Assembly: GCF_001029505.1 (NCBI RefSeq)
Contig: NZ_LEKH01000004.1
Coordinates: forward strand, 137,230 to 201,229
DNA from: Rubrobacter aplysinae
GTDB lineage: Bacteria > Actinomycetota > Rubrobacteria > Rubrobacterales > Rubrobacteraceae
Reading direction: 5' to 3'
Length of the DNA: 64,000 nt
The translations under genes and the position numbers were made by a program. Positions 38,492-53,455 of this stretch are shown in pieces. Within the stretch, counting starts at the first letter, position 1; every line of letters starts with the position of its first letter. The notes below the pieces were generated by a model. That model had not been told where the DNA came from and did not search any database. It was given only the letters and a program-made list of their open reading frames with translations.

Positions 38492-38755
38492 CTACCGGAA
38501 CATCGAGGGTTCCAGCTCGCGCACCACCGAGCACCGGTCTATGGGGAGATCGGCCAGGCGGGCGTGCTCGTACACCAGCTCCACGCTCGGGGACTCGTAC
38601 TCGCAGTAGAGCTTGCCTTCCTCGGCGGAGTAGTAGGATCGGATCCAACGCACCCCCGGCAACTGGTCTAGAGCTTCCAGGGACTTGAGCGCGGAGGCTT
38701 CTATCTTCTCCTCCGATACCTCTCCGACCGTCCGAACCAGAATGTACTTCGGCAT
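38492..38755 (-). CDS. DUF4242 (SCO4226-like nickel-binding) protein
   Basis: An 87-residue ferredoxin-like-fold protein (MPKYILVRTVGEVSEE; WIRSYYSAEEGKLYCEYESP). DUF4242 includes Streptomyces SCO4226, reported to bind nickel. Its ATG follows the stop codon of the SARP regulator with no gap (TAG then ATG), and the ribosome site GAGAGGAGG lies within the regulator's last codons, so its translation is coupled to that of the regulator. A link between metal sensing and the regulator is inference. Confidence 0.82.
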   Translation of the reverse strand: MPKYILVRTVGEVSEEKIEASALKSLEALDQLPGVRWIRSYYSAEEGKLYCEYESPSVELVYEHARLADLPIDRCSVVRELEPSMFR

Positions 38756-41700
38756 CTAGCCTCTCCTCTCCACGATTGACGGACCTACCGTTGCCTTTTT
38801 CAACTCTTCCTCTTTCGACGCGGCTTCTTCGTGAGTGCCCCGAGCGCCTTCCACGTCTCCCAGGGTCTCGTAGGTTCTGGAGATGTCCCGGAGAGCGCCG
38901 ACTTCGCCTTCCCTGTCTCCGAGCCTCCGGCGCAGGCGCAGCGAGCGTTTCAGACAGGAGAGGGCGCTCGAATGGTGTCCGAGCTCCCCGTGACTCTCCG
39001 CCAGGCTGGTGAGAACGTAAGCCTCGGCCTGAGAGTCTCCCAGCTCCCGCATTCGCTCTATCGCCCCCTTGCTACACCGGACGGATTCCCTGAGGCGGCC
39101 CAGGCCGCGATAGACGACGCCCAGGCTGGCCAGGGCTGCCGCCGTATGCTCCGGTTCGCCGTGCTCTCCGGCGAGGTCCAGGGCCTCCTCGTAGTAACGG
39201 GCGGACTCTTCCGGGGCTCCCATCTTCCAGCGCAGACCGGCCAGGTCCATCAGGACCTTCCGTAGATGCCCGGATTCCTCCAGCCCACGATACGTCTCGG
39301 CGGCGGCTTCGTAGGCGTCTAACGCCTCTGCCGGACAATCGAGAGAGAAGTGGAGCACGGTACCGAGCAGGAATAGGGCTTCCGCTTTGCCGGAGAGATC
39401 CTCGGCCAGGCCGGAACCCTCACAGGCCCTCTGCAGGAGCCCGGCCGCCTGCCTATAGGTCTCCGCCGCGCCGGAGGCATCCCCTTCTCGTTCCAAGCAG
39501 ACGCCGACTCCTATGAGCGCGTATCCCTCGTCCCGGGTGTAGCCCGTATCCTGGGAGAGGCGGGCGGCGGCGCGGAAATGCCCGAGCGCCTCTTCCGGGG
39601 ATTCGAGGCTCAGGTAGATATTGCCGCAGTTAAGATGCCCGGTGAAATGCAGGTTCTTGACCCCGGACTTCTCTAACAGCGCCAGACCTTTGTGGTGGAG
39701 CGCGAGCGAGGCCTGGAGGTCTCCTCGCTCGCGGTGGATGTTCGCTACCTGATTTATCTTGAAAGACTCGCCGAGCTTGTCTCCCAGCTCCCTGTCGAGC
39801 TGAAGAGCTTCCTCCGCCCAGCGCAGGGCGCTCTCGTAGTCGCCCATCTTGCGATACACCTGGGTTATGTTGTTGGCGTCCCCGGACTCGGCCTGTCTAT
39901 AGCCGAGGCTGCGGTGTATCCAGAGCGCCTGCAGGTTCGCCTCCAGCGCGCCCGCGTGATCTTGGTTCCTCCAGCGCGCGTAGCCCAGCTCCCGGTGCGC
40001 CCGGGCCTCCCCGGCCATGTCGCCCAGCTCCCGGAAGATCTCCACCGCGGCCCGCCCGGACTCCGCGGCGGCTTCCGGGTTCGTGACCATGAGGATACCG
40101 ATACGCCGGATGTGGGCTTCCGCGATCTTGTCCCGGTCTCCCAGATGGTTCGCAAGCTCGAAAAGCTCCTGCACCGCCGCCGTGCGCTCTTCCCACCGAT
40201 CCAGGTGCTCGATAAGAACTTCCCGCGCGGCGAGCAGCTCGAACCGCGTCTCCCCGGAGCCTGGCACCTTCTCCGTGATCTCCAGCGCCCGGTCGTAGTC
40301 TCTTACGGCGGTCTCCCAGGTGTGGCTCCCCGCCGCCTTCCGCGCCGCCCGCACTAGGCTATCCAGCGCCGGCCGCCACTCTTCCGCCTGCACGTAGTGG
40401 TGGGCGAGCTCCGCCGGCTCGCCGTCCTCCTCTTCCAGAGCCCGCGCCACCCGGAGGTGCAGCATCCGGCGCACGGGCTCGTCTGTAGCCCCGTAGAGCG
40501 CCTGGCGCAGCTTGTCGTGCGAGAACTGGTAGCTCTGGAAGCTCTCGACGACCATGCCGGAGCCTATAAGCGGTTTTATAGTGTCGAAGATCTCGAACTC
40601 CCCGCGCCCCACGACCCGGCACAGGAGCCCGAGGTCGCAGCCGCGCCCGACGACGGCGACGACCTCCAGCAGCTCCCGAGCCTCCTCGTTCAGGCCGCCG
40701 AAGCGGGCCTGAATGAGGGAGCGCACCCCCGAGGGCAGCGCGCTCTCCTGTAACACCTCGCCCTTTAGCCCCGAGATGCGCCGCCGGTCGTCTATCTCTA
40801 CGGCCCCGGACTCTATGAGCCAGCGCAGATACTCCACGGCGTAGAACGGGTTACCCTCCGACTCCCGGTACACGAACTCCGCGAGCGGTTGCAGATCCCC
40901 GAACGACTTGCGGGACATGCGGACGAGCATCCGGGTGACGTCTTCTAGCTCGAGACGGTCCAGGCTGATCCTGTCGAGAGCCCGCCTCTCATCCAGCTTC
41001 TCCAGCCACTCCGATAACTCCGGCGCTTGTTCGCGGCGGTAGGTCAGGACCAGCATTACCTTCTCGCCGGAGATCCGCTTTGCCAGGTAGGATAGAAAGT
41101 CCAGCGTTGCGGGGTCCGCCCACTGGAGGTCGTCTATGAACAGGATCAAGCCTTCGCCCGAGGCCTCGCGCAGAAGTGTCCCCGCCAACTCCTGATACAT
41201 GCGCGCGGCGCCCTGGGGCCGGTCGGTCCAGGGGTAGTCTGGAGTCGCTTCGTGGCTCTCGGATAGCTCGGGGACCGCCTCCGCCACGCTCTCGGCTTTC
41301 CCGAGCGCATCCACTACCGGCTCCAGCGGTGGGCCAAGCTCCCGCTCGTAGCAGCGTCCCCGGAGGACGTGGACGCCCCGGGAACGGGCATAGCCCAGAA
41401 ACTCTTCCGCAAGCCTCGTCTTCCCGACCCCGGCCTCGCCCTCGACCGCGATGGTACTCCCGCTGCCGAGCAGAGCCTGCCTCAACCGTTCGGCGAGCAC
41501 CCCGTGCTCCCCGTCGCGGCCCACGAAATGTGTCCGGCTGAGGGAGTAGGGGAGTCTCAGGGGACGGCGTGGTTTGGGGTACCGCCGCAGCTCATCCACG
41601 CCCGGCACGTCCCGGGCCTCTATCTGGGATTTGAGACGTTCCAGGTCCGCCGAAGGGATGGCGCCCAGAGCCTGTCTCAGCATCCTGGAGTAGTCGCGAA

Positions 41701-42403
41701 AGGCTCTGAGAGCCAGGTTCTGCTCTCCGGCGCAGTAGTGATACAACATTAAGCGCCGGTGGATGTCTTCCCCGTACCCGTCCAGGGTCAGCGCCTGCTT
41801 GCAGGACTCTACAGCCTCGGAGTAACGGCCTTTTAGCGCCAGGCACTCGGAGAGTTCCGAACACAACGTTAGCTCGCGCTCCTTCAACCGGTCCCTGGCC
41901 TCTATCGCCCACTCCTCGTAGGGCTCCTCGGCCAGAAACTCTCCCCGCGCGTAACCGAGTGCCGCCCGGTACTCGCGGATGGCATCATCCACTCTCTCGG
42001 CCTGCCGGGCCTCGTCGGCCCGCCGTCCGTGCCGCTCGAACTCCCAGGCGTCGACCTCGCAGTCAGCATCGCTGTTGAACGAGTAACCGGGCCGCTTCTG
42101 GTGGATGTAGCTTGAGGCCGAGCCGTGCCCGAGATCCGGCTCCAGCGCCCGTCTGAGCAGGCTTACCGTTACCCGGAGGCTGCGTTCTGCGGCATCCGGG
42201 GTCAGGCCGGACCATAGAGCATCAATGATCTCGTCTCTGGAGAACACGTGTCCGGGGCGGGTCAGGAGCAGCTTCAACAACGAGCGAGTCTTCTGCCGCC
42301 CCCACTCTTTGCTACCGACGAGTTCTTCTCCACGCCGCACCCGGAACTCGCCGAACAGGTTTATCTGCAGTCCCGCTTCCCTCACCCCTGGGGCCCCAAA
42401 CAC
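38756..42403 (-). CDS. Large SARP-type regulator (OmpR-like DNA-binding, BTAD, AAA ATPase, TPR)
   Basis: A 1215-residue transcription factor of AfsR-like architecture. Residues about 12-108 form an OmpR-type winged helix (LFGEFRVRRGEELV; SLRVTVSLLRRALEPD). About 115-262 is the bacterial transcriptional activation domain. The ATPase spans about 292-560, with Walker A GEAGVGKTR (322-330) and Walker B LILFIDDLQWAD (419-430). About 700-1200 is a long run of TPR hairpins (for example GDYESALRWAEEALQLDRELG). SARPs bind direct heptamer repeats 8 bp upstream of a -10 box to activate target genes. Three such sites lie at 42.5, 46.9 and 49.8 kb. The ATPase and TPR parts probably respond to nucleotide or a partner protein. 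It is coupled to DUF4242. Confidence 0.93.
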   Translation of the reverse strand: MFGAPGVREAGLQINLFGEFRVRRGEELVGSKEWGRQKTRSLLKLLLTRPGHVFSRDEIIDALWSGLTPDAAERSLRVTVSLLRRALEPDLGHGSASSYIHQKRPGYSFNSDADCEVDAWEFERHGRRADEARQAERVDDAIREYRAALGYARGEFLAEEPYEEWAIEARDRLKERELTLCSELSECLALKGRYSEAVESCKQALTLDGYGEDIHRRLMLYHYCAGEQNLALRAFRDYSRMLRQALGAIPSADLERLKSQIEARDVPGVDELRRYPKPRRPLRLPYSLSRTHFVGRDGEHGVLAERLRQALLGSGSTIAVEGEAGVGKTRLAEEFLGYARSRGVHVLRGRCYERELGPPLEPVVDALGKAESVAEAVPELSESHEATPDYPWTDRPQGAARMYQELAGTLLREASGEGLILFIDDLQWADPATLDFLSYLAKRISGEKVMLVLTYRREQAPELSEWLEKLDERRALDRISLDRLELEDVTRMLVRMSRKSFGDLQPLAEFVYRESEGNPFYAVEYLRWLIESGAVEIDDRRRISGLKGEVLQESALPSGVRSLIQARFGGLNEEARELLEVVAVVGRGCDLGLLCRVVGRGEFEIFDTIKPLIGSGMVVESFQSYQFSHDKLRQALYGATDEPVRRMLHLRVARALEEEDGEPAELAHHYVQAEEWRPALDSLVRAARKAAGSHTWETAVRDYDRALEITEKVPGSGETRFELLAAREVLIEHLDRWEERTAAVQELFELANHLGDRDKIAEAHIRRIGILMVTNPEAAAESGRAAVEIFRELGDMAGEARAHRELGYARWRNQDHAGALEANLQALWIHRSLGYRQAESGDANNITQVYRKMGDYESALRWAEEALQLDRELGDKLGESFKINQVANIHRERGDLQASLALHHKGLALLEKSGVKNLHFTGHLNCGNIYLSLESPEEALGHFRAAARLSQDTGYTRDEGYALIGVGVCLEREGDASGAAETYRQAAGLLQRACEGSGLAEDLSGKAEALFLLGTVLHFSLDCPAEALDAYEAAAETYRGLEESGHLRKVLMDLAGLRWKMGAPEESARYYEEALDLAGEHGEPEHTAAALASLGVVYRGLGRLRESVRCSKGAIERMRELGDSQAEAYVLTSLAESHGELGHHSSALSCLKRSLRLRRRLGDREGEVGALRDISRTYETLGDVEGARGTHEEAASKEEELKKATVGPSIVERRG

Positions 42404-42848
42404 ACAGGTATTGAGACATACGTTTCAAAGAGGATCATAGCACGATAGGTAGAGTTGCCGCACCCTATGAGCGGGTGGTTTTTGGCATCCTTTTAATCGG
42501 CTACCGGAGGCTCCGGCAGCAAACCTCCCTCTCGTAACAAATGCGTAACTTCAAACGGTTAGCCTCCCGCATGGAGATGTTGGCGAGATCTGAGTAGGTA
42601 AGCGTTAGATATGCGCAAGTCCAGCCGACCGGGGCCGGGTCACCGGTGACTACCGTCGCTCCTCTATCCCACGTACGGAGGATTTCAAGACAATGAATGT
42701 GTCGTGGGAGCTAACTGACACCTGTTTCATCAGTAACGCAGTCCGTGCTTGTGTGATCGCGTGAGATGCGAAACGTTCCGCTCCTGATCGGGAGTCCCGG
42801 TAGACGCAGGCTCAGTGCCGTCACGCTGGCCGGTACGGGACCCTTGTA
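42404..42848. other. 445-bp divergent regulatory region beside the SARP gene
   Basis: It contains the SARP-type promoter at 42534-42565 and a perfect 12-bp palindrome GTCACCGGTGAC at 42639-42650. Two mini-ORFs follow on the + strand: 12 codons from ATG 42611, and 23 codons from ATG 42693 to the stop at 42762-42764, the latter with GGAG 12 nt upstream (MNVSWELTDTCFISNAV...). A minus-strand -10-like TATGAT lies near 42437-42442 for the SARP gene. Neither mini-ORF resembles a known peptide. Confidence 0.45.
42534..42565 (+). promoter_or_regulatory. SARP-type promoter A
   Basis: GTAACAA (42534-42540), 4 bp, GTAACTT (42545-42551), 8 bp, TAGCCT (42560-42565), followed by CCCG. The heptamers repeat every 11 bp, one helical turn, and the downstream copy ends 8 bp before the -10 box, the classical SARP geometry. 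It points toward the BenE-like gene, which starts 283 bp further on. Confidence 0.6.
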
Positions 42849-44084
42849 ATGCTACTGCCAGGTACGCTCCGGCGTTGGCTGCCGGCTCTCGGCACCGCGG
42901 TCCCCCTCATCATCCTGCCCATCGCCGTGTTGAGCCTTCCATTGGCCGCGGCGAAGGAGATGGGCCTGTCGGAGAGGGAGACGGCGAGCTGGATCCTGGC
43001 ACTGTACGGCCTTCCGGGCCTTTTGAGCCTGGTGCTTACCATCCGTTATCGTCAACCGCTTCTTTTAACTGGAAACTTTTTCGTGCTCATCTTTATCGTC
43101 TCCCTCGGCAGCAGTCTCAGCTACCCGGAGCTTATCGGTGCCTCTGCCTTGGCGGGCGCTTGTGTAGTGCTACTCGGCGCGCTGGGTCTCACGAGGCGTC
43201 TTGCGGACTGGATACCGGCTCCGATAGTGTTCGGTCTCCTCGCCGGTGCCGTCATGTCCTTTGTCTCGGACATCTTTGGTTTTCTGGGCGAGGCGCCGGT
43301 GCTGATCGGCGGCACCGTCCTGGCCTATTTCTTGAGCCTTCGTATACTTGGATCTCGTTTACCCGCTATCCTGCCGGCGCTCATTGCGGGTCTCGCCATC
43401 GCCGCACTAGCCGGACACCTGGGAGGGGCGTCTACACGCCCATCGTCGCCGGTGGCCGTACTCACGGTTCCAGAGTTTTCGGTGCAGGCTATCGCTACCG
43501 CCACCCCGGTACTCGTCATCATAATCACGCTCCAGTCGAATCTGCCTTCGATGGTCTTTTTGCAGAACGAGGGTTACCGTCCGCCCGAGCGTGTGGTCAA
43601 CAACGTGAGTGGGATGGGTACGCTCCTGGGATCGCTACTCGGCCCGGCCGCGGTCTCTCTTTCGCTACCGGTCACGGCACTCGTAGCCGGACCGGACGCC
43701 GGCGAGCATCAGTACCGCCAGCGGGCCGTATACCTGGCGAGTGGAGCAGTGGTACTGGTCGCGCTGCTGGCCGGCATCGCCGCGGAGATACCGGAGATCA
43801 TCCCTCTACCGCTGCTCCTTACGCTCGCAGGGTTGGCGGCGGTGGGCGTGCTGGCAAACGCGCTGCAGGAGATCACCCGCGGACCTTTGCTGCTCGGGCC
43901 TCTGTTCGCGTTTGCTATCGCTCTCTCGGATATCTCACTACTCGGCTTCGGGCCCTTTTTCTGGGCGCTCGCCATTGGCACAGGCATCTCGTTTTTGCTC
44001 GAACGAGACGAGCTGCAAGAGTTGCGCTCACCCGTGCCCGTGGCAGGGGGACGTTCAAAATCGCAGGGGGGAGCAACAAAGTGA
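42849..44084 (+). CDS. benE: BenE-like benzoate/H+ symporter
   Basis: A 411-residue membrane protein with about 12 helices. The segments AKEMGLSERETASWILALYG and RYRQPLLLTGNFFVLIF are typical of the BenE family, and the NVSGMGTLLGSLLGPAAVSL loop matches the family motif in the second half. BenE proteins import benzoate with protons; related members may carry other aromatic or organic acids, and no benzoate catabolic genes are seen here. ATG 42849 lacks a good ribosome site. It lies downstream of SARP-type promoter A. Confidence 0.82.
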   Translation: MLLPGTLRRWLPALGTAVPLIILPIAVLSLPLAAAKEMGLSERETASWILALYGLPGLLSLVLTIRYRQPLLLTGNFFVLIFIVSLGSSLSYPELIGASALAGACVVLLGALGLTRRLADWIPAPIVFGLLAGAVMSFVSDIFGFLGEAPVLIGGTVLAYFLSLRILGSRLPAILPALIAGLAIAALAGHLGGASTRPSSPVAVLTVPEFSVQAIATATPVLVIIITLQSNLPSMVFLQNEGYRPPERVVNNVSGMGTLLGSLLGPAAVSLSLPVTALVAGPDAGEHQYRQRAVYLASGAVVLVALLAGIAAEIPEIIPLPLLLTLAGLAAVGVLANALQEITRGPLLLGPLFAFAIALSDISLLGFGPFFWALAIGTGISFLLERDELQELRSPVPVAGGRSKSQGGATK

Positions 44085-44180
44085 ACTGCTGCTGTGTAGA
44101 GCAATGGCAATACTCTGATACACGCCCCGGTGGCTTCGTCGAACAACAAGCTGCGGCAATCCTGTGTCCTCACGCGGAGG

Positions 44181-44618
44181 CTATCTAGCGGCTCTTCTAT
44201 ACGAGGCTTTTCCCGGCAGCGTCGTGGCAAGCCCGAGTTCGTGGGCCAGTCTAGCTCCTGCCTCGCCGCCCAGGGCGAAGGCTATCCACTCAAGAGCGTC
44301 CCTCTGGCGATCGGTGCTGCGGGCGCGGACTCGGGCTACATTATCCAGGCGCTCGGCGAAAATCCTGCGCTCGCAGGAAGGCTCGTCGCAGAAGAACTTC
44401 CGCACCTGAACCCGTAAACGCATCGAACTCCTGGAGCACGGCAGGTCGGCCAGAGTGCGGGTGTAGAGACCATGAATGCGACGTGAAGAATGCTTGCAAA
44501 CCGGGCAAATAGCGGCGCTGCTAGTCGTTGAGGCGTGGATAGTAAAGCCTCGATCATCGAGCACGATCTCCTCTACGTGTAAACCCTCCGGCACAGCGAA
44601 GGAAGCGAAAGGTCTCAT
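44181..44618 (-). pseudogene. ISL3-family transposase remnant (N-terminal part)
   Basis: A frame of 145 residues contains the ISL3 zinc-ribbon (CPVCKHSSRRIHGLY, FFCDEPSCERRIF) and the start of the helix-turn-helix region (AFALGGEAGARLAHELGL). It then ends abruptly in ATTLPGKASYRRAAR, where a full transposase would continue for another 250-400 residues with the DDE domain. No inverted repeats were identified. Its ATG lies 2 nt after the stop of the glycosyltransferase gene and its ribosome site (AGGAGA) is inside that gene, so insertion took place at the very end of it. Confidence 0.8.
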
Positions 44619-44620
44619 GG

Positions 44621-45946
44621 CTATCTCCTATGCGTGTGAGCGGCCTGAACGAAGGCATCCACCGCCTCTCTCACCCCGTCTTCTCGCCGCAGGCGCTCTC
44701 CGAGTGCCCGGGCTCGCTCCCTCACCTCCGGTTCTTCGGCGGCCTTTATTGCCTCCGCCAGTCGCTCGGCGCAGAGCCTTTTTCGAGGAATCGGCGCGGG
44801 ACCAGCCCCAAGAGCGTGAACGCGCCTTCCCCACATCGGCTGGTCGCCTATGAAGGGGACGATGGCGGTTGGCACGCCTGCTCGCAGGGATGCCGCGGTG
44901 GTTCCCGCCCCGCCGTGATGGACCGCGACGGAGATATGCGGGAAAAGCCAGTCGTGGGGGACCTCTTCTGCCTTGAAGATCCCCTCCGGCAGATCGGGGT
45001 TGGAGAGCCCGCCCCAGCCGGTAAGCAATATCCCTCTCCTGCCGGAGAGCCTGAGCGCTTCGAGCACTACCTCGGTGGTCTCCTCGGGATCGCGCTCGTT
45101 CATAGAACCAAACCCGATGCTGACCGGTGGAGGACCGGCCGAGAGGAAGTCTTCGAGGGCTTTTGGTGGCTTGAAGTCGTCAGGCCGCTGTAGGGACCAG
45201 TAGCCGGTTACGCGCAGGTGTCCGCCCCAGTCGTGGGGCTTGGGAAGGACCTGTGGGCTGAAACCATAGAGGCAAGGGTTCCGATCTCTGACCATGGCCC
45301 CGAAGGAGTCCCGCCCACGCATGGGTGGCAGCCCGAGGATTCCTCGCCTGGCCCGGTTGGTAGTGTTCCTCAAGAGTATTAGGCTCTTCTCCGCGAGCCA
45401 GTAGGTAGAGAGGTTGTACCCGGCGCGTAAGGGTGAGCCCTCCGGTAACCACCCGGGAGCTTCGGGGAACCCCATGCAGGGTAGCTCGCGCGTGGGATGG
45501 ACGTGCTGGAGGAAGGCGGGCACGCACGGGATGCCGAGCAGTTCGGCGACGTGGTAGCCGGAGAAGAAGCCAATCGCCGAGCAGAGGATAGCGTCCGCTC
45601 CGCGACAGACCTCCAGGGCATCGGCGAAGCTTTTCTTCGCTAAAGGGTTCATGGTCGAGAGGACGTGGCGGGCGAGCAAAAGCGGATTCTGTCCAGCCTC
45701 CTCCATCTTCACCCGCCGTTTGCCGGGCTCTTCTTCGGCCAGCTGAACACCGAGTTCGCCACTGACTATCTCGTAGTAGTCGCCGAGGATTGGCTCGTAG
45801 TCCAAGCCACGAGCGCATACCTCCTGTTCGAAGTTCGTGTAAGCGGCGAAACGAACCTCGTGCCCGGCCTCCTTGAGGCCGAGGCCCAGCGCAAGGTAAG
45901 GCCAGACGTCGCCGCGGCTGCCCATCGCCAGCACCGCAACACGCAT
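44621..45946 (-). CDS. UGT-type glycosyltransferase (family 1/28, sterol/macrolide-like)
   Basis: A 441-residue GT-B enzyme. The N-terminus VLAMGSRGDVWPYLALGLGL with AGHEVRFAAYTNFEQEV is typical of UGT80-like sterol 3-beta-glucosyltransferases and of antibiotic glycosyltransferases. The donor-binding motif near the C-terminus includes HHGGAGTTAASLRAGVP and PFIGDQPMWGRRV, which bind a UDP- or TDP-sugar. It transfers a sugar to a small hydrophobic acceptor. ATG 45944-45946 overlaps the TetR stop by 1 nt (TAATG), so both are one transcript. The extreme C-terminus (QAAHTHRR) may have been altered by the adjacent IS insertion. Confidence 0.9.
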   Translation of the reverse strand: MRVAVLAMGSRGDVWPYLALGLGLKEAGHEVRFAAYTNFEQEVCARGLDYEPILGDYYEIVSGELGVQLAEEEPGKRRVKMEEAGQNPLLLARHVLSTMNPLAKKSFADALEVCRGADAILCSAIGFFSGYHVAELLGIPCVPAFLQHVHPTRELPCMGFPEAPGWLPEGSPLRAGYNLSTYWLAEKSLILLRNTTNRARRGILGLPPMRGRDSFGAMVRDRNPCLYGFSPQVLPKPHDWGGHLRVTGYWSLQRPDDFKPPKALEDFLSAGPPPVSIGFGSMNERDPEETTEVVLEALRLSGRRGILLTGWGGLSNPDLPEGIFKAEEVPHDWLFPHISVAVHHGGAGTTAASLRAGVPTAIVPFIGDQPMWGRRVHALGAGPAPIPRKRLCAERLAEAIKAAEEPEVRERARALGERLRREDGVREAVDAFVQAAHTHRR

Positions 45947-46626
45947 TAGACGTTCTCCCCGGCGCTGTCGATTCCTCGCTCCAGGATGCCGTGCATAAGG
46001 AGATCTACTACGTGTTCCTTGCGCGCTTCGACGAAACCCGGATGGTCGGGGTCGATCCCGAGCGTGCGGATCAGACCGCCTCCGAGCTGGAAAGGAAAAG
46101 CGCACAGCGCAATCATGCTTGCCGCCAACTGGGCTACGTCGACCTCCCGAAACGGTCCCCTCCGTAGATCCTCGTCGAGTACCTCGAGCCCAAAGGCACT
46201 CAGCGACTCCGCCATCCGGGCCTCGGGAGAGGAGGCGCCCTCAAGAGCGGCGTCTTCCCCAGAGGCTTCGCGCTCGACAAGGCGAACGTAGTTGGGGTTA
46301 GCTGCAAGGAAGTCCACGTAGGATCTGAGAGCGTCGGCTATTGACTCCCCAGGATCTTTCTCTTCAGCCTTAGCCCGATCCAAATCCGCCGACCGAGCCT
46401 GCTCGGCAAAGTCTCGTACCCTCTGCGCAAGTCGCTCCTTGACCGCAACGTACACGCCCTCTTTGGAACCGAAGAAGTAAGAGGGCGTGCCGCGCGAGAC
46501 GGCCGCCTCCCGCCCGATCTGCTGGAGACTCGTCATGGCGTACCCCCTCTGCGCGAACAGACTCTCCGCCGCATCGAGGACAGCAGCTTTTGTCCTGTTC
46601 GGGTCACGTACCCACTCTCGCTCCAA
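45946..46626 (-). CDS. TetR-family regulator of the glycosyltransferase
   Basis: A 226-residue TetR protein. The N-terminal HTH is clear (KAAVLDAAESLFAQRGYAM, TSLQQIGREAAVSRGTPSYFFGSKEGV, shown as landmarks). The C-terminal ligand domain is helical with LDRAKAEEKDPGESIADALR. It is translationally coupled to the glycosyltransferase gene and probably responds to that enzyme's acceptor or a related toxic small molecule. An inverted repeat lies 24 bp upstream of its start. Confidence 0.88.
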   Translation of the reverse strand: MEREWVRDPNRTKAAVLDAAESLFAQRGYAMTSLQQIGREAAVSRGTPSYFFGSKEGVYVAVKERLAQRVRDFAEQARSADLDRAKAEEKDPGESIADALRSYVDFLAANPNYVRLVEREASGEDAALEGASSPEARMAESLSAFGLEVLDEDLRRGPFREVDVAQLAASMIALCAFPFQLGGGLIRTLGIDPDHPGFVEARKEHVVDLLMHGILERGIDSAGENV

Positions 46627-46649
46627 GATTGCGCCGCCTTCCTACCAGA

Positions 46650-46665
46650 TGCTTGATAGCAAGCA
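46650..46665. promoter_or_regulatory. Inverted repeat, likely TetR operator
   Basis: TGCTTG (46650-46655), 4 bp, CAAGCA (46660-46665), a perfect 6-bp inverted repeat directly downstream of a minus-strand TATACT. A bound dimer here would block transcription of the TetR-glycosyltransferase operon. Confidence 0.55.
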
Positions 46666-46868
46666 AGTATAGACGGCCACGCAACACAGGTCGACACGGG
46701 CTCTGGGCGACTGATGTGTCCTATGTGCGCGCAGCTCTACTTACGCTTCACCTAGAGTCCGGGAGATCCACGACTTCATGGGTTGGACTGTCCGCACCAC
46801 CCGGACGGGCTTTTTCGGAGCCCTGCGCCGGTACTCCAACGGGGCGGACGGCAACGGAGCTCACTCCC

Positions 46869-46900
46869 GTAACAAAAGCGTAACCCCGGCTGGATAGTCT
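46869..46900 (+). promoter_or_regulatory. SARP-type promoter B
   Basis: GTAACAA (46869-46875), AAGC, GTAACCC (46880-46886), 8 bp, TAGTCT (46895-46900), then CCCG. Heptamers are 11 bp apart and the 8-bp gap to the -10 box is exact. The next gene starts at 46946, giving a leader of about 38 nt with AAGGAGG at the right distance. Confidence 0.7.
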
Positions 46901-46945
46901 CCCGGCAGACGAGAAACGTCAGCGAAGCAGCGAAGGAGGCGAGCC

Positions 46946-47155
46946 ATGAAAGAGAGCTGCTACTGCGGCCGGACGGGTGAGGTAGAGGACCGGGACCCGA
47001 TTCTGGACGGCAGAGGGAAGCGGGTGCTCCAGTGTCCCGAGTGTGGTCACGGGGACGATCTGTGCTGGCTATCCGAGGAGGCCGGTCGTCTGCTGTGGGA
47101 AGAGGCGATGAGCCGGCGTGGAGTAACGGCCGACGAATCGCTCCCTGCCGCCTAG
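46946..47155 (+). CDS. Small zinc-ribbon protein
   Basis: A 69-residue protein with three or four metal-binding cysteines (C5, C7 in SCYCGRTG; C30 and C33 in CPECGHGD; C40). The pattern is that of a rubredoxin/zinc-ribbon fold. It begins a cluster directly behind SARP-type promoter B, with AAGGAGG 7 nt upstream. It may act as a small redox or regulatory protein for the downstream flavoenzyme; no family name can be given. Confidence 0.7.
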   Translation: MKESCYCGRTGEVEDRDPILDGRGKRVLQCPECGHGDDLCWLSEEAGRLLWEEAMSRRGVTADESLPAA

Positions 47156-47185
47156 CGTCCCCGCCTGGGGAGAAAGGTTGGAGAG

Positions 47186-47380
47186 ATGCGCGTGGAATTT
47201 CGACGTTGGTACGAGGCCGAGGCTTTGATGAGGGATCTAACGGTACACCGGCACGAGATCCTGGCCGCCTCCGGAGAGGATGTCGAGCGCAGGATGCGGA
47301 GCCACTACACGGAGGCGGCGGCGATCCTGGTGCACGAGAAGGCTGAAAAGGCGAGCACAGAGGCCCGGCGTGGGCCTTGA
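47186..47380 (+). CDS. Small helical hypothetical protein
   Basis: A 64-residue, charged, all-helical protein (FRRWYEAEALMRDLTVHRHE; MRSHYTEAAAILVHEKAEKA). No cysteines, signal or known domain. It starts 30 bp after the zinc-ribbon stop, behind AAGG at moderate distance, and 67 bp before the flavoenzyme, so it is likely in the same transcript. Function unknown. Confidence 0.55.
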   Translation: MRVEFRRWYEAEALMRDLTVHRHEILAASGEDVERRMRSHYTEAAAILVHEKAEKASTEARRGP

Positions 47381-47447
47381 CCCACCGGCGGAACCAGAGA
47401 GAACGGCCTAGTAGACGAGAACGGCCCAATCACGGAAAGGAGAAGTC

Positions 47448-48845
47448 ATGTCGGACACCGTAACCCCAACCATAGGGGACTCGGCCATCGCGGGGCTACA
47501 GAGCGAGCTTAGAGGAGGCCTGATCCGGCGCGGCGGCGAGGGCTACGACGCCTCCCGCACGGTCTACAACGCGATGATCGACCGCCACCCGCACCTGATC
47601 GCCACCTGTAGGGATGTCGCCGACGTGATCTCCGCCGTCAACTTCGCCCGCGAACAAGGGCTGCTCCTCGCCATCCGGGGCGGCGGCCACAACGGCGGAG
47701 GACTCGGTATCTGTGACGACGGACTGGTCATAGACCTCTCGTCCATGAAGGGCGTAAGCGTAGACCCCGTGGCGCGCACCGTCCGAGCCGAGGGTGGCTG
47801 CGTCTGGGGCGACGTGGACCACGCGACCCACGCCTTCGGTCTGGCGACGCCCAGCGGCGTCATCTCCACCACCGGCGTCGGCGGCCTCACCCTGGGCGGC
47901 GGCCTCGGACACCTGACGCGCAGGTACGGCCTGACCATAGATAACCTCCTCTCCGCAGACGTGGTGCTCGCGGACGGCAGCTTCGTTACGGCCAGCGAGG
48001 AGGAGAACGAGGATCTCTTCTGGGCGCTGCGCGGCGGCGGGGGAAACTTCGGCGTCGTCACCTCGTTCCTGTTCCGGCTGCACCCCGTGAACAACATAAT
48101 CGGCGGCCCGACGCTGTGGCCGCTGGAGCAGGCCCCCGAGGTCATGTGCTGGTACCGGGACTTTATCGCCGAGGCACCGGAGGATCTCAGTGGCTTCTTC
48201 GCCTTCCTGACCGTGCCGCCCGGACCTCCGTTCCCCGAGCACCTGCACCTGAAGAAGATGTGCGGCATCGTCTGGTGCTACACCGGGCCGGAAGAAGATG
48301 CCGACGAGGTGTTCGCCCCCGTCCAGGAGGTTGGCACTCCGGCGCTGCACGGCGTACACGAAATGCCCTATCCGGCACTCCAGAGCGCCTTCGACGGGTT
48401 GTATCCGCCTGGATTGCAATGGTACTGGAAGGCGGACTTCATCAACGAGCTCTCCGACGCGGCGATCGAGGCGCACCTGGGGTACGCGGAGGTCCCGACG
48501 CTGCACTCGACCATGCACCTGTACCCGATCAACGGCGCGGCGCACCGGGTCGGAAAGAACGACACGGCGTGGAGCTACCGGGAAGCAACCTGGGGAATGG
48601 TTATCGCCGGCGTGGACCCCGAACCGGCGAACAGGGAGCTCATCATCGACTGGTCGCGGGACTACTGGGAGGCTATACACCCGCACTCCGCAGGCGGCGC
48701 CTACGTGAACATGATGATGGACGAAGGCCAGGAACGGGTCCGGGCCAGCTACCGCGACAACTATGACCGGCTGGCGGCCGTCAAGCGCGAGTACGACCCC
48801 GGAAACCTCTTCCGCGTCAACCAGAACATAGTGCCGGCGGCGTAA
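47448..48845 (+). CDS. BBE-type FAD-linked oxidoreductase
   Basis: A 465-residue enzyme of the vanillyl alcohol oxidase/PCMH superfamily. The FAD domain contains AIRGGGHNGGGLG, whose His (about residue 84) is the usual covalent FAD attachment, and GVGGLTLGGGLGHLTRRYGL. The second attachment Cys of berberine bridge enzyme is replaced by His in GLGHL, so a single covalent link is likely. The C-terminal BBE domain is present (YDPGNLFRVNQNI). Such enzymes oxidise alcohols, amines or sugars with O2, producing H2O2. Excellent ribosome site AAAGGAGA. It is part of the cluster behind SARP-type promoter B. Confidence 0.9.
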   Translation: MSDTVTPTIGDSAIAGLQSELRGGLIRRGGEGYDASRTVYNAMIDRHPHLIATCRDVADVISAVNFAREQGLLLAIRGGGHNGGGLGICDDGLVIDLSSMKGVSVDPVARTVRAEGGCVWGDVDHATHAFGLATPSGVISTTGVGGLTLGGGLGHLTRRYGLTIDNLLSADVVLADGSFVTASEEENEDLFWALRGGGGNFGVVTSFLFRLHPVNNIIGGPTLWPLEQAPEVMCWYRDFIAEAPEDLSGFFAFLTVPPGPPFPEHLHLKKMCGIVWCYTGPEEDADEVFAPVQEVGTPALHGVHEMPYPALQSAFDGLYPPGLQWYWKADFINELSDAAIEAHLGYAEVPTLHSTMHLYPINGAAHRVGKNDTAWSYREATWGMVIAGVDPEPANRELIIDWSRDYWEAIHPHSAGGAYVNMMMDEGQERVRASYRDNYDRLAAVKREYDPGNLFRVNQNIVPAA

Positions 48846-48976
48846 GCGCACAGCCGTGAGAGTCTGGAGGTAGAGGCGATAGCGCGACAGGGCTGGCTCC
48901 GGAGTGGGAGAAGGGGAGCGGAGCCAGCTAGGCCGGGATATAGGAGCAAGAAACCGGAGAGCGAAGGAGGCTGGTG

Positions 48977-49714
48977 ATGAGTACGTTCGTTTTGGTGCAT
49001 GGTGGGTTTGTCGGAGGCTGGCTGTGGGAGAAGGTGGTCCCGCTCCTGGAGGACGCCGGCCATCAGGTCGAGGCCCCGGATCTCCCCAGGCACGGCGACG
49101 ACCGGACCCCGATCCCGGAGGTCTCGTTACAAGGCTACGCGGACCGGATCTCCCAGGTGTTGGATGCCCAGCCCGAGCCGGTCGTGCTCGTCGGGCAGAG
49201 CATGGGCGGTATGGTCATCAGCCAGGCCGCCGAGCAACGTCCCGACAAGATAGCGATGCTCGTCTACGTGGGCGCGCACCTGTTGCGCGACGGCGAGTCG
49301 CTGCTTTCGGCCTCCGAGGACGACACGGAGTCGCTGGTCTTGTCGAACCTGGTGATGAACGAGGACGGGTCGTCCGCCATCGTCCGGGAGGACGCCATCA
49401 GGGAAGCCATAATGGCCGACTGCTCGGACGAAGACTTGGAGCGGGCTAAGTCCCGGTTCGAGCCTCAAGCCGTAGCCCCACTCGCCACGCCGATTACCCT
49501 TACCGAAGACAACTTCGGCCGGATACCGCGGGTGTACATCGAAACCCTCAAGGACCGGTCCATCAGCCCGTCGTTCCAGAAAGAGATGTACGAGCGGTTG
49601 CCCTGCGAGAAGGTCGTCTCCATGGACACGGGTCACTGGCCTTTCTACTCGGCTCCCGAAGAGTTGGCGAGCCACCTGAGCTCTCTGCCCGCGCGAGACA
49701 GTGTGCCCGGATAA
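48977..49714 (+). CDS. Alpha/beta hydrolase (salicylate esterase-like)
   Basis: A 245-residue alpha/beta hydrolase. The oxyanion segment is FVLVHGGFVGGWLWEKVV, the nucleophile Ser lies in VGQSMGGMV, and the catalytic His near the end is in MDTGHWPFYSAPEEL. The family (HNL/MES-like, salicylate-type) cleaves esters or cyanohydrins; the substrate is unknown. The start ATG 48977 has AAGGAGG 6 nt upstream; GTG 48974 is in frame just before. It lies 131 bp downstream of the flavoenzyme and may belong to the same cluster. Confidence 0.88.
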   Translation: MSTFVLVHGGFVGGWLWEKVVPLLEDAGHQVEAPDLPRHGDDRTPIPEVSLQGYADRISQVLDAQPEPVVLVGQSMGGMVISQAAEQRPDKIAMLVYVGAHLLRDGESLLSASEDDTESLVLSNLVMNEDGSSAIVREDAIREAIMADCSDEDLERAKSRFEPQAVAPLATPITLTEDNFGRIPRVYIETLKDRSISPSFQKEMYERLPCEKVVSMDTGHWPFYSAPEELASHLSSLPARDSVPG

Positions 49715-49821
49715 AAGGAATGTGTCCTTATTCTCGACCCCGGAAATCTGTTCTACGTGGATCACAACACCAGACCAGCCGGGTGAGGAGGATTACGGAC
49801 AAGGAAGAGACCGAATCGCCG

Positions 49822-49853
49822 GTAACAAAAGTATAAAGCCGGGCGGGTAGCTT
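49822..49853 (+). promoter_or_regulatory. SARP-type promoter C
   Basis: GTAACAA (49822-49828), AAGT, ATAAAGC (49833-49839, a degenerate second heptamer), 8 bp, TAGCTT (49848-49853), then CCCG. The geometry is the same as promoters A and B. The cupin gene begins 44 bp after the -10 box, giving a leader almost as long as that of promoter B. Confidence 0.65.
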
Positions 49854-49896: not shown

Positions 49897-50262
49897 ATGC
49901 ACCAGAGAAAGGAAGAGCTGCCCGTCACGATGGAAGACGGCGGCCTCAGCGTCCGCCTGACCGGCTGGGGCAACACGGCCGTGACCTTCATGCAGATGCC
50001 CGCGGGGGTGGACCTGACACCCGCGCTCGCCGGTCTACCAGAAGATCTCTGTCAGTGTCCGCACTGGGGATACGTCCTCGAAGGCGCGGTCCACGTCCGC
50101 TACGCGGATGGCGAGGAGGAGACTGTCGAGAGGGGCAACGTCTACTACTGGCCCGCCGGGCACACTGTGTGGTTCGACGAGGACACGAAGTACGTGGAGT
50201 TCAGCCCGGAGGCCGGGATGAGAGACGTACTGGAGCACGTCACGCACCAGTCGCACGGGTGA
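49897..50262 (+). CDS. Cupin-fold protein
   Basis: A 121-residue single-domain cupin. Motif 1 is CPHWGYVLEGAVHVRYADGEEE and motif 2 GNVYYWPAGHTVWFDED. Two of the usual metal His residues are present, with Cys (QCPHWG) near the first, so metal binding is plausible. The ATG at 49897 is chosen for GAGAGGAG 7 nt upstream and the MHQRKEELP start. It is the first gene behind SARP-type promoter C. Reaction unknown. Confidence 0.8.
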   Translation: MHQRKEELPVTMEDGGLSVRLTGWGNTAVTFMQMPAGVDLTPALAGLPEDLCQCPHWGYVLEGAVHVRYADGEEETVERGNVYYWPAGHTVWFDEDTKYVEFSPEAGMRDVLEHVTHQSHG

Positions 50263-50429: not shown

Positions 50430-51302
50430 ATGGAACGGGCACGGATTGATGGAGCGGAGCTTGAGTACGAGGTCCGGGGCGCTGGAGAGCCGGTCGTGCT
50501 GGTTCACGGCAGCATTATCGGGGACGCTTTCGCGCCGCTGTTCGCGGAGCCGGAGCTTGCGGAGCGGTATCAGCTGATCACGTACCACCGGCGCGGTTTC
50601 GCCGGGAGCACCCACCCGGATGGTCCGGTCAGTATCGAGCAGCATGCGGCCGACTGCCGTGCCCTCATGCAACACCTCGGGGTGCGGCGGGCGCACTTGG
50701 CCGGGTACTCCTACGGCGGACCGATCGTGTTGCAGCTCGCCCTCGACGCTCCGGAGATGGTGCATTCGCTCGCGCTGCTGGAGCCCGCGCTGTTCTTCGT
50801 CCCCAGCGCCGAGCAGTTCATGCAAGAGGTGGGGCCGATAGTGCAGATGTACGAGGCGGGCGACAAGAGGGGGGCGATAGACGGGTTCCAGCAGGTCGTG
50901 GTGGGTCCAGAGTACCGCAGCATGCTGGATCGCGCGCTGCCGGGAGCCTTCGAGCAGGCCGTTGTCGACGCCGATACGTTCTTCCGGAACGAACTCCCCG
51001 CTCTCGGAGAGTGGAAATTTACCCAGGAAGACGCAGCACACATCACGCAGCCGGTTCTCGCCGTGCTCGGGGGAGAAAGCCATACCCTCTCGCCGGTTCC
51101 GGTGGAGATATACGAGCTGGTACAGACGTGGTTCCCCCAGACGGAGACCTTTGTGCTGGAGGACGCCACGCACGGGCTGCAGATAATGAACCCGCGGGGA
51201 ATGGCGGCGGGATTGGCCGGGTTCTTCGCGCGCCACCCGCTGTCAGAGGACACCGAGCGCGCTCTGGGATCTGAGCCGGGCGGCAGGCAGACCGCCAGGT
51301 AA
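50430..51302 (+). CDS. Alpha/beta hydrolase
   Basis: A 290-residue alpha/beta hydrolase. The N-terminal oxyanion segment is VVLVHGSIIGDAF, the nucleophile Ser is in AGYSYGGPIVLQL, and a late His sits in EDATHGLQIMNP. A lid of about 80 residues (130-210) is Phe- and Met-rich. Hydrolases of this group act on esters, lactones or epoxides; the substrate is unknown. ATG with GAGAGGAGCATAAGG ahead of it. It follows the cupin in the promoter C cluster after a 167-bp gap. Confidence 0.88.
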   Translation: MERARIDGAELEYEVRGAGEPVVLVHGSIIGDAFAPLFAEPELAERYQLITYHRRGFAGSTHPDGPVSIEQHAADCRALMQHLGVRRAHLAGYSYGGPIVLQLALDAPEMVHSLALLEPALFFVPSAEQFMQEVGPIVQMYEAGDKRGAIDGFQQVVVGPEYRSMLDRALPGAFEQAVVDADTFFRNELPALGEWKFTQEDAAHITQPVLAVLGGESHTLSPVPVEIYELVQTWFPQTETFVLEDATHGLQIMNPRGMAAGLAGFFARHPLSEDTERALGSEPGGRQTAR

Positions 51303-51465: not shown

Positions 51466-52551
51466 ATGACGGACACCAGGGGCGTGGCGACGACAGAGCT
51501 GGAGGTGATGGTGCGGCTCGACGAGCGTCCCGGCAACCCGGCAATCACGCCGGAGGGCAGGATGATCCTGAGCCTGCACCCGTTTCCCCATGGCGAAGCG
51601 TCGCCGTATCGCGTGGTCGAGGTGCTGCACGACGGGAGCACTGTCCCGTTCCCGAACGAGGAGTGGAGCACCGCGCCGGACAGCGAGGGCGTTGGGCTAT
51701 CCGCGGTGATCGGGGTCCAGTCCGACAGCAAGGGGGTGGTCTGGATCCTGGACATAGGCGGCGGCGAGAACCCATCCCCCAAACTGGTCGCCTGGGACAC
51801 CAGAAAGGATGAGCTGCACCGCGTCATCCACGTCCCGCCGGATGCCACCCGGTACAACTCCTTCCAGCAGGATCTCGCCATAGATGAGGCTCATGACGCC
51901 ATCTTCATTGCGGACGTATGCCACGGCGACCTCTTCGGAACCAGCGACCCGGCTATCGTGGCCGTGGACCTGGAGACGGGCAGCGTCCGGCGCGCCCTGC
52001 AGGATCACCCCAGCCTCCAGCCCGAGGAAGACGTCTCGCTGGTCATCGGAGGTCACCCGCTGCTTACCTTGAACCCCCAGGGTGAACTGGAGGAGTCCAA
52101 GATCGGGCTCGATCCTATAGTCATAGACCACCAAAACGAGTGGGTCTACTACGGTGCTCTCCACGGCAAGAGCATCTTCCGCGTCCGCGCCGCCGATCTC
52201 CTCGACGAAAGCCTCTCTGAGGAAGAGCTCGGCAGCCGGGTACAGCGTCACGGCGATAAGCCCATAAGCGACGGCATCAGCATAGACACCGCCGGTAACG
52301 TCTACGTCACCGACCTCGCGAGCAACGCGATAGGGATAACGGCCCCCGACGGCTCCTACCACATCCTGACCCGGGACGACGAGCACTGCATCTGGCCCGA
52401 CGGCATGAGCCACGGCCCGGACGGTTACCTCTACGTGACCGCCAGCCAGCTCCACCGCTCGGCCCCGCTCAATGCCGGAGAGGAGGTCTCCGAGCCACCC
52501 TTCGAGGTCCTGCGTTTCCGGCCGCTCGCGCCGGGCGCGGTAGGCCGTTGA
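51466..52551 (+). CDS. Major royal jelly/yellow-like six-bladed propeller protein
   Basis: A 361-residue protein. Repeated beta-propeller blades are visible (SDSKGVVWILDIGGG; DLAIDEAHDAIFIADV; DGISIDTAGNVYVTDLASN; GPDGYLYVTASQLH). The IWDIGxG-like and late DLASNAI segments resemble the MRJP family and SMP-30/gluconolactonase relatives, with acidic residues able to bind Ca2+ or another metal at the axis. Bacterial members may act as lactonases or dopachrome-related isomerases. Start ATG 51466 with AAAGGAGGAG 6 nt upstream. Several intergenic bases (51303-51465) separate it from the hydrolase. Confidence 0.82.
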   Translation: MTDTRGVATTELEVMVRLDERPGNPAITPEGRMILSLHPFPHGEASPYRVVEVLHDGSTVPFPNEEWSTAPDSEGVGLSAVIGVQSDSKGVVWILDIGGGENPSPKLVAWDTRKDELHRVIHVPPDATRYNSFQQDLAIDEAHDAIFIADVCHGDLFGTSDPAIVAVDLETGSVRRALQDHPSLQPEEDVSLVIGGHPLLTLNPQGELEESKIGLDPIVIDHQNEWVYYGALHGKSIFRVRAADLLDESLSEEELGSRVQRHGDKPISDGISIDTAGNVYVTDLASNAIGITAPDGSYHILTRDDEHCIWPDGMSHGPDGYLYVTASQLHRSAPLNAGEEVSEPPFEVLRFRPLAPGAVGR

Positions 52552-52636: not shown

Positions 52637-53455
52637 ATGACCATAGATAGCCCGGCGCCCGACCTGGGCGCCATCAAGGAGCGCCAGCAACAGACCTGGT
52701 CCACCGGAGACTACGCGAGGGTCGGCAACCTGCTGGTCATTATGGGCGAGAATCTGTGCGAGGCGGTGGACCTCCGCTCCGGCCAGAGGGTGCTGGACGT
52801 GGCGACCGGCAGCGGTAACACTGCGCTCTCCGCCGCCCGCCGCTTCTGCGAGACCACCGGCATAGACTACGTCCCCGAGCTTATAGAGCAGGCAAAGGAA
52901 CGTGCCTGGGCCGAACGCCTCGACGCCGCCTTCGAGGTCGGCGACGCGGAGAATCTGCCATATCCCGACGCCTCTTTCGACGCTGTGCTCTCCACGGTAG
53001 GGGTGATGTTTGTTCCGGATCAGGAGAAGTCCGCGGGCGAGATGCTCCGGGTCTGCAAGCCGGGGGGCAGGATCGGGCTCGCCAACTGGACCCCCGACGG
53101 CTTCGTCGGCAACATGTTTCGTACCGTCGGCAAGCACTTTCCGCCGCCCGGCGTCAAGCCTCCCCCGCTGTGGGGCACCGAAGAACGGCTCGGAGAGCTC
53201 TTTGGAGACGGCGTCTCGTCGCTCGACACCACCCGGCGCGCGTACGTCTTGCACTACCCGTCGGTGGCTCACTTCATAGAGCACTTCCGCTCCTACTACG
53301 GGCCGATCTACAAGGCTTTCGCCTCCCTCGATGTCACCGGGCGCGAGGCTCTTGAAAATGACCTTAAGGAGCTCATAGGTCACTGGAACGTCTCCGGCGA
53401 CAGTACGGTGGTCCTGCCCTCGGACTACCTGGAGGTGGTCGCCGTAAGGCGCTGA
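52637..53455 (+). CDS. Class I SAM-dependent methyltransferase (UbiE-like)
   Basis: A 272-residue Rossmann-fold methyltransferase. Motif I VLDVATGSGNTALSAARR binds SAM, GIDYVPELIEQAKERA is the second strand and acidic end, and GDAENLPYPDASFDAV is motif II/III of the UbiE type. The C-terminal lid is about 100 residues. Proteins like this methylate small molecules; the target is unknown. ATG with a GAGAG ribosome site. Fifth gene of the promoter C cluster. Confidence 0.88.
   Translation: MTIDSPAPDLGAIKERQQQTWSTGDYARVGNLLVIMGENLCEAVDLRSGQRVLDVATGSGNTALSAARRFCETTGIDYVPELIEQAKERAWAERLDAAFEVGDAENLPYPDASFDAVLSTVGVMFVPDQEKSAGEMLRVCKPGGRIGLANWTPDGFVGNMFRTVGKHFPPPGVKPPPLWGTEERLGELFGDGVSSLDTTRRAYVLHYPSVAHFIEHFRSYYGPIYKAFASLDVTGREALENDLKELIGHWNVSGDSTVVLPSDYLEVVAVRR

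Follow-up and report, generated by a model that had tools for sequence, protein, structure and literature searches.

Three 32-bp sites in the window, i.e., the 64,000-nucleotide stretch of Rubrobacter aplysinae DNA analysed here, are probably operator-promoters of the large SARP regulator encoded next to them (Table 1). Judged from the sequences, they seem to belong to a real, local and undescribed regulon that is probably SARP-controlled. The sites, their geometry and conservation, their co-occurrence with the SARP gene and the protein family of the regulator are established in this analysis. What these data support, without proving it, is an AfsR-like SARP that has an operator code of its own and serves a local regulon of apparently non-antibiotic function. 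Literature searches reveal no paper that links a SARP to Rubrobacter in substance, or a SARP to GTAACAA.

Table 1. Sites, genes and protein segment discussed in the text, with positions in the window.
Feature	Position	Strand	Remarks
87-aa SCO4226-like protein	38492..38755	-	PF14026; directly 3' of SARP gene, zero gap
Large SARP: OmpR-type winged HTH, BTAD, AAA_16/STAND ATPase, TPR; proposed activator	38756..42403	-	Pfam Trans_reg_C, BTAD, AAA_16, TPR
Recognition helix, modelled helix 69-87 of SARP	codons 42143..42199	-	alignments and DSSP of model
Site 1: GTAACAA-atgc-GTAACTT-caaacggt-TAGCCT-cccg	42534..42565	+	direct repeat, 8 bp, -10 TAGCCT
Site 2: GTAACAA-aagc-GTAACCC-cggctgga-TAGTCT-cccg	46869..46900	+	8 bp, -10 TAGTCT
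Site 3: GTAACAA-aagt-ATAAAGC-cgggcggg-TAGCTT-cccg	49822..49853	+	second repeat degenerate; 8 bp, -10 TAGCTT
69-aa zinc-ribbon-like protein, first gene behind site 2	46946..47155	+	same-genus orthologue directly behind SARP-adjacent site
64-aa small protein	47186..47380	+	orthologue is first gene behind site in G002
FAD_binding_4 + BBE oxidoreductase, most recurrent enzyme of regulon	47448..48845	+	
Alpha/beta hydrolase	48974..49714	+	
Cupin, first gene behind site 3	49897..50262	+	
Alpha/beta hydrolase	50430..51302	+	orthologue (74%) also in G026 cluster
MRJP/SMP-30-like beta-propeller protein	51466..52551	+	
Class I SAM methyltransferase	52637..53455	+	orthologue after FAD gene in G002, G003, G010

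On re-reading, the three sites have the heptamers, the 8-bp distance and the -10 boxes that the initial annotation had given them, and the SARP gene is found next to them as described, on the (-) strand and encoding 1215 amino acyl residues. Site 1 is situated 131 bp upstream of the SARP start and faces away from the SARP gene; the nearest good start downstream of it (42849) is 283 bp off and no gene lies within 280 bp. Sites 2 and 3 are indeed close to start codons, but the 44-45 bp claimed between site and start codon have to be corrected to 45 bp (from the end of the -10 box to the ATG at 46946) and 43 bp (to the ATG at 49897), respectively. The CCCG following the -10 box is present in all three window sites and does not hold as a firm feature, being loosely kept in relatives. 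When up to three mismatches are allowed, the window contains the three sites only, whereas dinucleotide shuffles average 0.08. No Rfam family is detected between 42000 and 50500. The genome-wide scan which had been proposed as a check, a pattern search with up to two mismatches to the 32-bp pattern, finds only the three window sites in the 3.19-Mb genome, without off-target copies and with the sites just ahead of or between cluster genes; a further pattern search for GTAACAA-N4-RTAA without the -10 box finds four exact places, three of which are the window sites, and as the pattern was drawn from the sites themselves, such tests of uniqueness are partly circular and recurrence in other genomes constitutes the independent test.

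For this purpose 39 genomes of the order, all from one family (Rubrobacteraceae), are compared, and a phylum sample of 396 genomes consists of these 39 and 357 from the rest of the phylum. A SARP orthologue, 57-67% identical and of full length where the contig allows, is encoded in 10 of the 39 genomes, and sites occur in 10/10 of these versus 0/29 of the others (Fisher p 1.6e-9, phylogeny ignored). The exact pattern is present in nine of the ten SARP genomes and in no other genome among the 396 across the phylum, the 357 genomes from elsewhere in the phylum yielding no exact match. A variant site, ATAACAAAANTTTAAC-N10-TAGYCT, exists in the tenth SARP genome (G037) and with the second SARP copy of G030. 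In total, 18 sites with full geometry are found in the ten genomes; one-mismatch matches in G009, G010 (C1:2216289), G021, G025, G033 (C316), G038, and G002 (C35), from which the conserved core is absent, are not counted. Presence of SARP and site splits within four genera (g5, g7, g11, and g12) and is therefore not a marker of one clade. In 10 of 11 SARP copies a divergent site is located close upstream. In G026, about 4 kb separate the SARP gene from its nearest site. The earlier suggestion of a local, undescribed SARP regulon is thus supported by this co-occurrence and by the uniqueness of the sites in the genome, binding by the SARP being what we infer from them.

A search with RTAACAAAANNKTAAC alone, leaving out the -10 box, identifies 15 places, 14 of them in SARP genomes. 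All 14 possess TAGNYT exactly 8 bp past the second heptamer, and the fifteenth, from the SARP-less G001, is without TAGNYT at this distance. Over the 18 sites, a position within the site carries 1.34 bits of information, as against 0.20 and 0.42 bits in the 30 bp preceding and following it, respectively. Their consensus is CC-GTAACAAAAGC-GTAACGYCGG-N5-TAGCCT with an invariant CAAAA core, and the 4-bp spacer of the heptamers (AAGC) shows strong conservation as well, so that the element is better written as (C)GTAACAAAAGCGTAAC-N10-TAGCCT. Expressed as 11-bp units, the consensus is CGTAACAAAAG/CGTAACGYCGG, in the same register as the repeat units CGTT(T/C)ATCGNN of AfsR (PMC10972967). SARPs follow the rule that repeats are 11 or 22 bp apart and that the 3' repeat is 8 bp from the -10 box (PMC10936776), and the spacing expected for a large SARP, 11 (or 22) bp between repeats and 8 bp from heptamer to -10 box, is what is found here. 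The 11-bp period and the 8 bp which had been taken as SARP placement equal the published AfsR arrangement (PMC10936776).

In the SARP itself, an N-terminal winged HTH is followed by BTAD, with Trans_reg_C and BTAD both above curated cut-offs, and the C-terminal half comprises AAA_16 and several TPR families, with a Walker A motif (GEAGVGKTRL) that is invariant in seven orthologues. It is the sole BTAD (PF03704) match in the genome. Scanning the named genomes for the SARP reveals one Rubrobacteraceae locus as well as distant relatives (≤36%). An AlphaFold2 model of residues 1-280 (pLDDT 88) has its best structural match in AfsR within the transcription complex (8k60, Z 22.4, 248 residues aligned, rmsd 2.9, 29% identity), followed by EmbR (Z 20.8), and sequence searches agree on AfsR (8hvr, E 5e-13). 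TPR proteins ranked below AfsR and EmbR are discarded as they reflect the helical BTAD repeat only. As an AfsR orthologue (NCBIfam NF053617) the protein scores 123 bits versus an equivalog cut-off of 1430; it is AfsR-like, not AfsR itself.

In AfsR, the recognition helix reads bases through R92 and T88, S46 at the start of helix 1 touches the DNA backbone, and the DNA-contacting residues conserved among SARPs are Q48, W74, P79, T88, R94, and K95 (PMC10936776). Residues R77, V78, S81, L82, R84, and R85 of the SARP align with R87, T88, S91, R92, R94, and K95 of AfsR. W74 (W64) and R94 (R84) are kept, P79 (P69) is kept in most orthologues, K95 corresponds to R85 or K, and Q48 to K38. The base-reading T88 and R92, as well as the RNAP-contacting E76 and E77, are not kept: the T88 position is V78 in 10/11 orthologues (T in G033) and the R92 position is L82 in 10/11 (V in G008). 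The changes to V78 and L82 would fit the altered heptamer, but which residue sets specificity is not proven, since G033, with T78, still has a standard site. R36, aligned with AfsR S46, is replaced by G in two SARPs and no others, namely those that have variant sites (ATAACAAAANTTTAAC); coming from a single lineage and one event, this offers only a hint of a possible link between R36G and the variant sites.

The SCO4226-like companion gene is kept beside the SARP gene in 7/7 complete orthologues and in one Trueperaceae relative (SARP 36%, companion 60%), which belongs to another phylum; no GTAAC site is seen in the short upstream stretch of the Trueperaceae locus. SCO4226 of S. coelicolor binds nickel (PMC4186839), and the companion scores 15.9 versus 125 bits for the nickel-binding equivalog. 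It is a decidedly doubtful idea that SARP and companion form an old sensor module, extending from Rubrobacteraceae to Trueperaceae, in which the metal-binding companion, or its metal, gates the ATPase and which, in Rubrobacteraceae, evolved a DNA code of its own (GTAAC repeats) to control a copper-chaperone/flavoenzyme stress regulon rather than the making of antibiotics.

Site 2 is followed by the genes for the zinc ribbon, the 64-aa protein, the FAD-BBE oxidoreductase and an alpha/beta hydrolase, site 3 by those for the cupin, the second hydrolase, the propeller protein and the methyltransferase. Close orthologues (66-78%) of the FAD-BBE oxidoreductase exist only in SARP-bearing genomes, and the SARP-less G038 has a relative of this gene at 60% without a site. 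First genes behind sites in relatives encode the zinc ribbon, the 64-aa protein, the FAD enzyme, DUF1326 followed by PpoB2, SnoaL-like proteins, or several different methyltransferases; that different genes are situated behind one site argues that the site itself is selected. Pfam describes PpoB2 as copper chaperone, and no literature on DUF1326 or DUF2182 was found. Sites 1 and 2 are separated by a glycosyltransferase gene, a TetR gene and the remnant of an ISL3-type transposase (44181-44618), whereas in the same-genus G012 the SARP-adjacent site is directly ahead of the zinc ribbon, and therefore the window cluster was probably rearranged. Scanned neighbours of the SARP include oxidoreductase, hydrolases, cupin, methyltransferase and DUF1326-PpoB2, with no PKS or NRPS among the neighbouring proteins scanned. 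Our guess from the FAD-BBE, DUF1326 and PpoB2 genes is that the enzymes of the regulon might together process a small aromatic compound in a redox- or metal-linked way.

A second class of GTAAC promoters exists in this family. A conserved hairpin with a TCCCCCCTCCA loop, located between molybdopterin oxidoreductase and endonuclease-V-like genes (seen in L152 and L175), is present in 27 of the 39 genomes, SARP-less ones included. In the 20 loci examined, GTAAC half-sites occur upstream of the hairpin at 11- and 22-bp steps, and the last heptamer is 8 bp before a TAnnnT box in 18/20 by script and in a nineteenth (L172) by eye, at a background rate of 0.03. As these arrays are present in SARP-less genomes, GTAAC repeats seem to have another reader there, which would most simply be a regulator of the OmpR/PhoB type, so that repeat geometry alone does not prove SARP binding, and our confidence in the SARP as reader of the three sites has been lowered from very high to fairly good. 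Several of the uncounted matches (G010, G021, and G002 C35) coincide with the promoter of the hairpin element or are close to it. Another repeat of this genome, GTAACAAACGGGTAACAAAG at C13:20870, precedes a Ser/Thr kinase gene; it was considered as a parallel to AfsK-AfsR and rejected, as nearly all genomes of the family have the kinase and the double repeat is not conserved. In this kinase promoter, a single GTAACAA-like element seems to act as -35.

A family-wide OmpR/PhoB-type response regulator might thus read both the three sites and the hairpin-element promoter, the SARP being a mere neighbour or sharing the sites. Besides the arrays at the hairpin, the recognition of the same repeats at afsS by PhoP and AfsR in Streptomyces speaks for it (PMC10972967), and for this reason both readings could be true. 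However, the cluster sites have only two repeats, with the CAAAA core and the TAGNYT box that the hairpin arrays do not have; they vanish wherever the SARP is absent while the hairpin arrays remain, and the FAD-gene relative of G038 is without a site, all of which makes this explanation rather unlikely. The physical linkage of the sites to its gene counts against the SARP, since co-occurrence could then reflect inheritance of the whole cluster, and so do the AfsR base-reading and RNAP-contacting residues that it has not kept, the distance of 4 kb in G026 and the want of a close gene behind site 1.

If conservation were due to cluster inheritance only, the sites might be SARP-independent promoters of an ECF or housekeeping sigma factor. 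The upstream GTAACA matches TTGACA at 4/6 positions, and in a kinase promoter from the same family it appears in the manner of a -35 element, at a distance of about 18 bp. In the sites, however, GTAACA is 20 bp from the -10 box, which is too far for an unaided sigma factor and too long a spacer for sigma-A, the -10 box is TANNNT and not of the ECF CGTC type, both GTAAC copies are conserved to about the same degree, and unrelated first genes are situated behind the same site, so that such promoters are very improbable here. Chance resemblance in one window might be suspected as the window contains GTAACAA by itself three times, a number that shuffles reach in 9/100, but the full geometry recurs in ten genomes (18 sites), SARP-less genomes do not have it, and base composition predicts about 0.1 exact matches in the 396 phylum genomes; this reading is already refuted by the recurrence.

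For the SARP as activator, which we consider the probable reader, two protomers would bind the two 11-bp direct repeats (CGTAACAAAAG and CGTAACGYCGG) on one helix face at the -35 position. Once bound, the SARP might keep sigma region 4 and RNA polymerase in place at the TAGNYT -10 box, which lies 8 bp downstream, in the manner of AfsR at afsS. The ATPase/TPR half would restrain the activator until a signal, which in AfsR is ATP binding, releases it. Binding, activation and signal are what we infer here, and the regulon would be local, with hydrolases, a flavoenzyme, a methyltransferase, a cupin and small proteins in the window and, in relatives, also DUF1326-PpoB2 pairs.

Most known SARP binding sites come from antibiotic clusters of Streptomyces. 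Here, a sequence-defined SARP-type operator from a deep actinobacterial lineage is represented by 18 natural variants; the genome offers only one candidate BTAD regulator, and the target set is small, local and not an obvious antibiotic cluster. This provides a clean system for studying changes of DNA specificity among SARPs and the signal to which the ATPase/TPR half responds. The second GTAAC class is a warning against assigning regulators in Rubrobacteraceae from repeat geometry alone.

Regulators of the PhoB/PhoP type from the OmpR family also place a winged HTH on 11-bp direct repeats near the -35 region, but carry a receiver domain in place of BTAD, ATPase and TPR, and no such gene is seen beside the sites in the loci read. 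EmbR of Mycobacterium tuberculosis shares the winged HTH and BTAD fold and differs by a C-terminal FHA domain instead of ATPase and TPR. The SARP-LAL regulators PimR, SanG, and PolR are likewise large multidomain SARPs and act on direct repeats of a heptamer that are separated by 4 bp; however, their heptamer is CGGCAAG and their targets are antibiotic clusters, and the primary operator of PimR has three repeats without -35 overlap. With AfsR from S. coelicolor and the afs box of afsS, the regulator described here has in common the SARP-ATPase-TPR architecture, a modelled N-terminus that superposes, and two 11-bp direct repeats with a heptamer 8 bp from the -10 box and a poor -35. In contrast to AfsR, a global antibiotic switch with CGTT(T/C)ATCGNN repeats, it seems to employ the operator CGTAACAAAAG-CGTAACGYCGG, has V78 and L82 in place of T88 and R92, is encoded next to an SCO4226-like gene and appears to serve a local enzyme regulon.

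The hairpin element, which carries a second class of GTAAC promoter, is conserved and intergenic and was found in 27 of the 39 Rubrobacteraceae genomes compared, mostly as a single copy per genome. It opens with an array of GTAAC half-sites, set at steps of 11 or 22 bp and with 8 bp to a TAnnnT box, and continues with a stable hairpin with the C-rich loop TCCCCCCTCCA, at which a T run is often present; in the R. aplysinae genome, two such hairpins seem to stand in tandem. The element looks like a short small RNA that has a C-rich loop and an OmpR/PhoB-type promoter. The three loci searched against Rfam (L010, L023, and L152) gave no match.

Related motifs also occur at the promoter of a Ser/Thr kinase gene that is near-universal in Rubrobacteraceae. 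Upstream of this gene, GTAACAA or GTATCAAA recurs about 18 bp ahead of TATACAAT (L122-L151), a recurrence suggesting that GTAACA-like -35 elements may be common in the family.

Coordinates of the features discussed
Feature	Position	Remark
SCO4226-like protein	window 38492-38755	directly behind SARP gene
ISL3-family transposase fragment (Zn_ribbon_ISL3)	window 44181-44618	lies in the cluster, flanked by sites 1 and 2 (putative SARP operator-promoters)
DUF1326-PpoB2-like pairs of G026	L031 7846-9290 and L031 11961-13452	
Hairpin element, source-genome locus	G000:C27 near 4752 (= L175)	further loci L165-L184

In genome G026, two separate DUF1326-PpoB2-like gene pairs are each preceded by a site of their own. 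Genome G030 carries differing SARP copies on two contigs (L032 and L046), one with the standard site and the other with the variant; its assembly, with contamination at 5%, is possibly a mixed one.

The SARP gene and its SCO4226-like companion are retained as a pair in seven orthologous loci and also on a Trueperaceae contig (L052), so that retention of the pair, present in Rubrobacteraceae and Trueperaceae, spans phyla.
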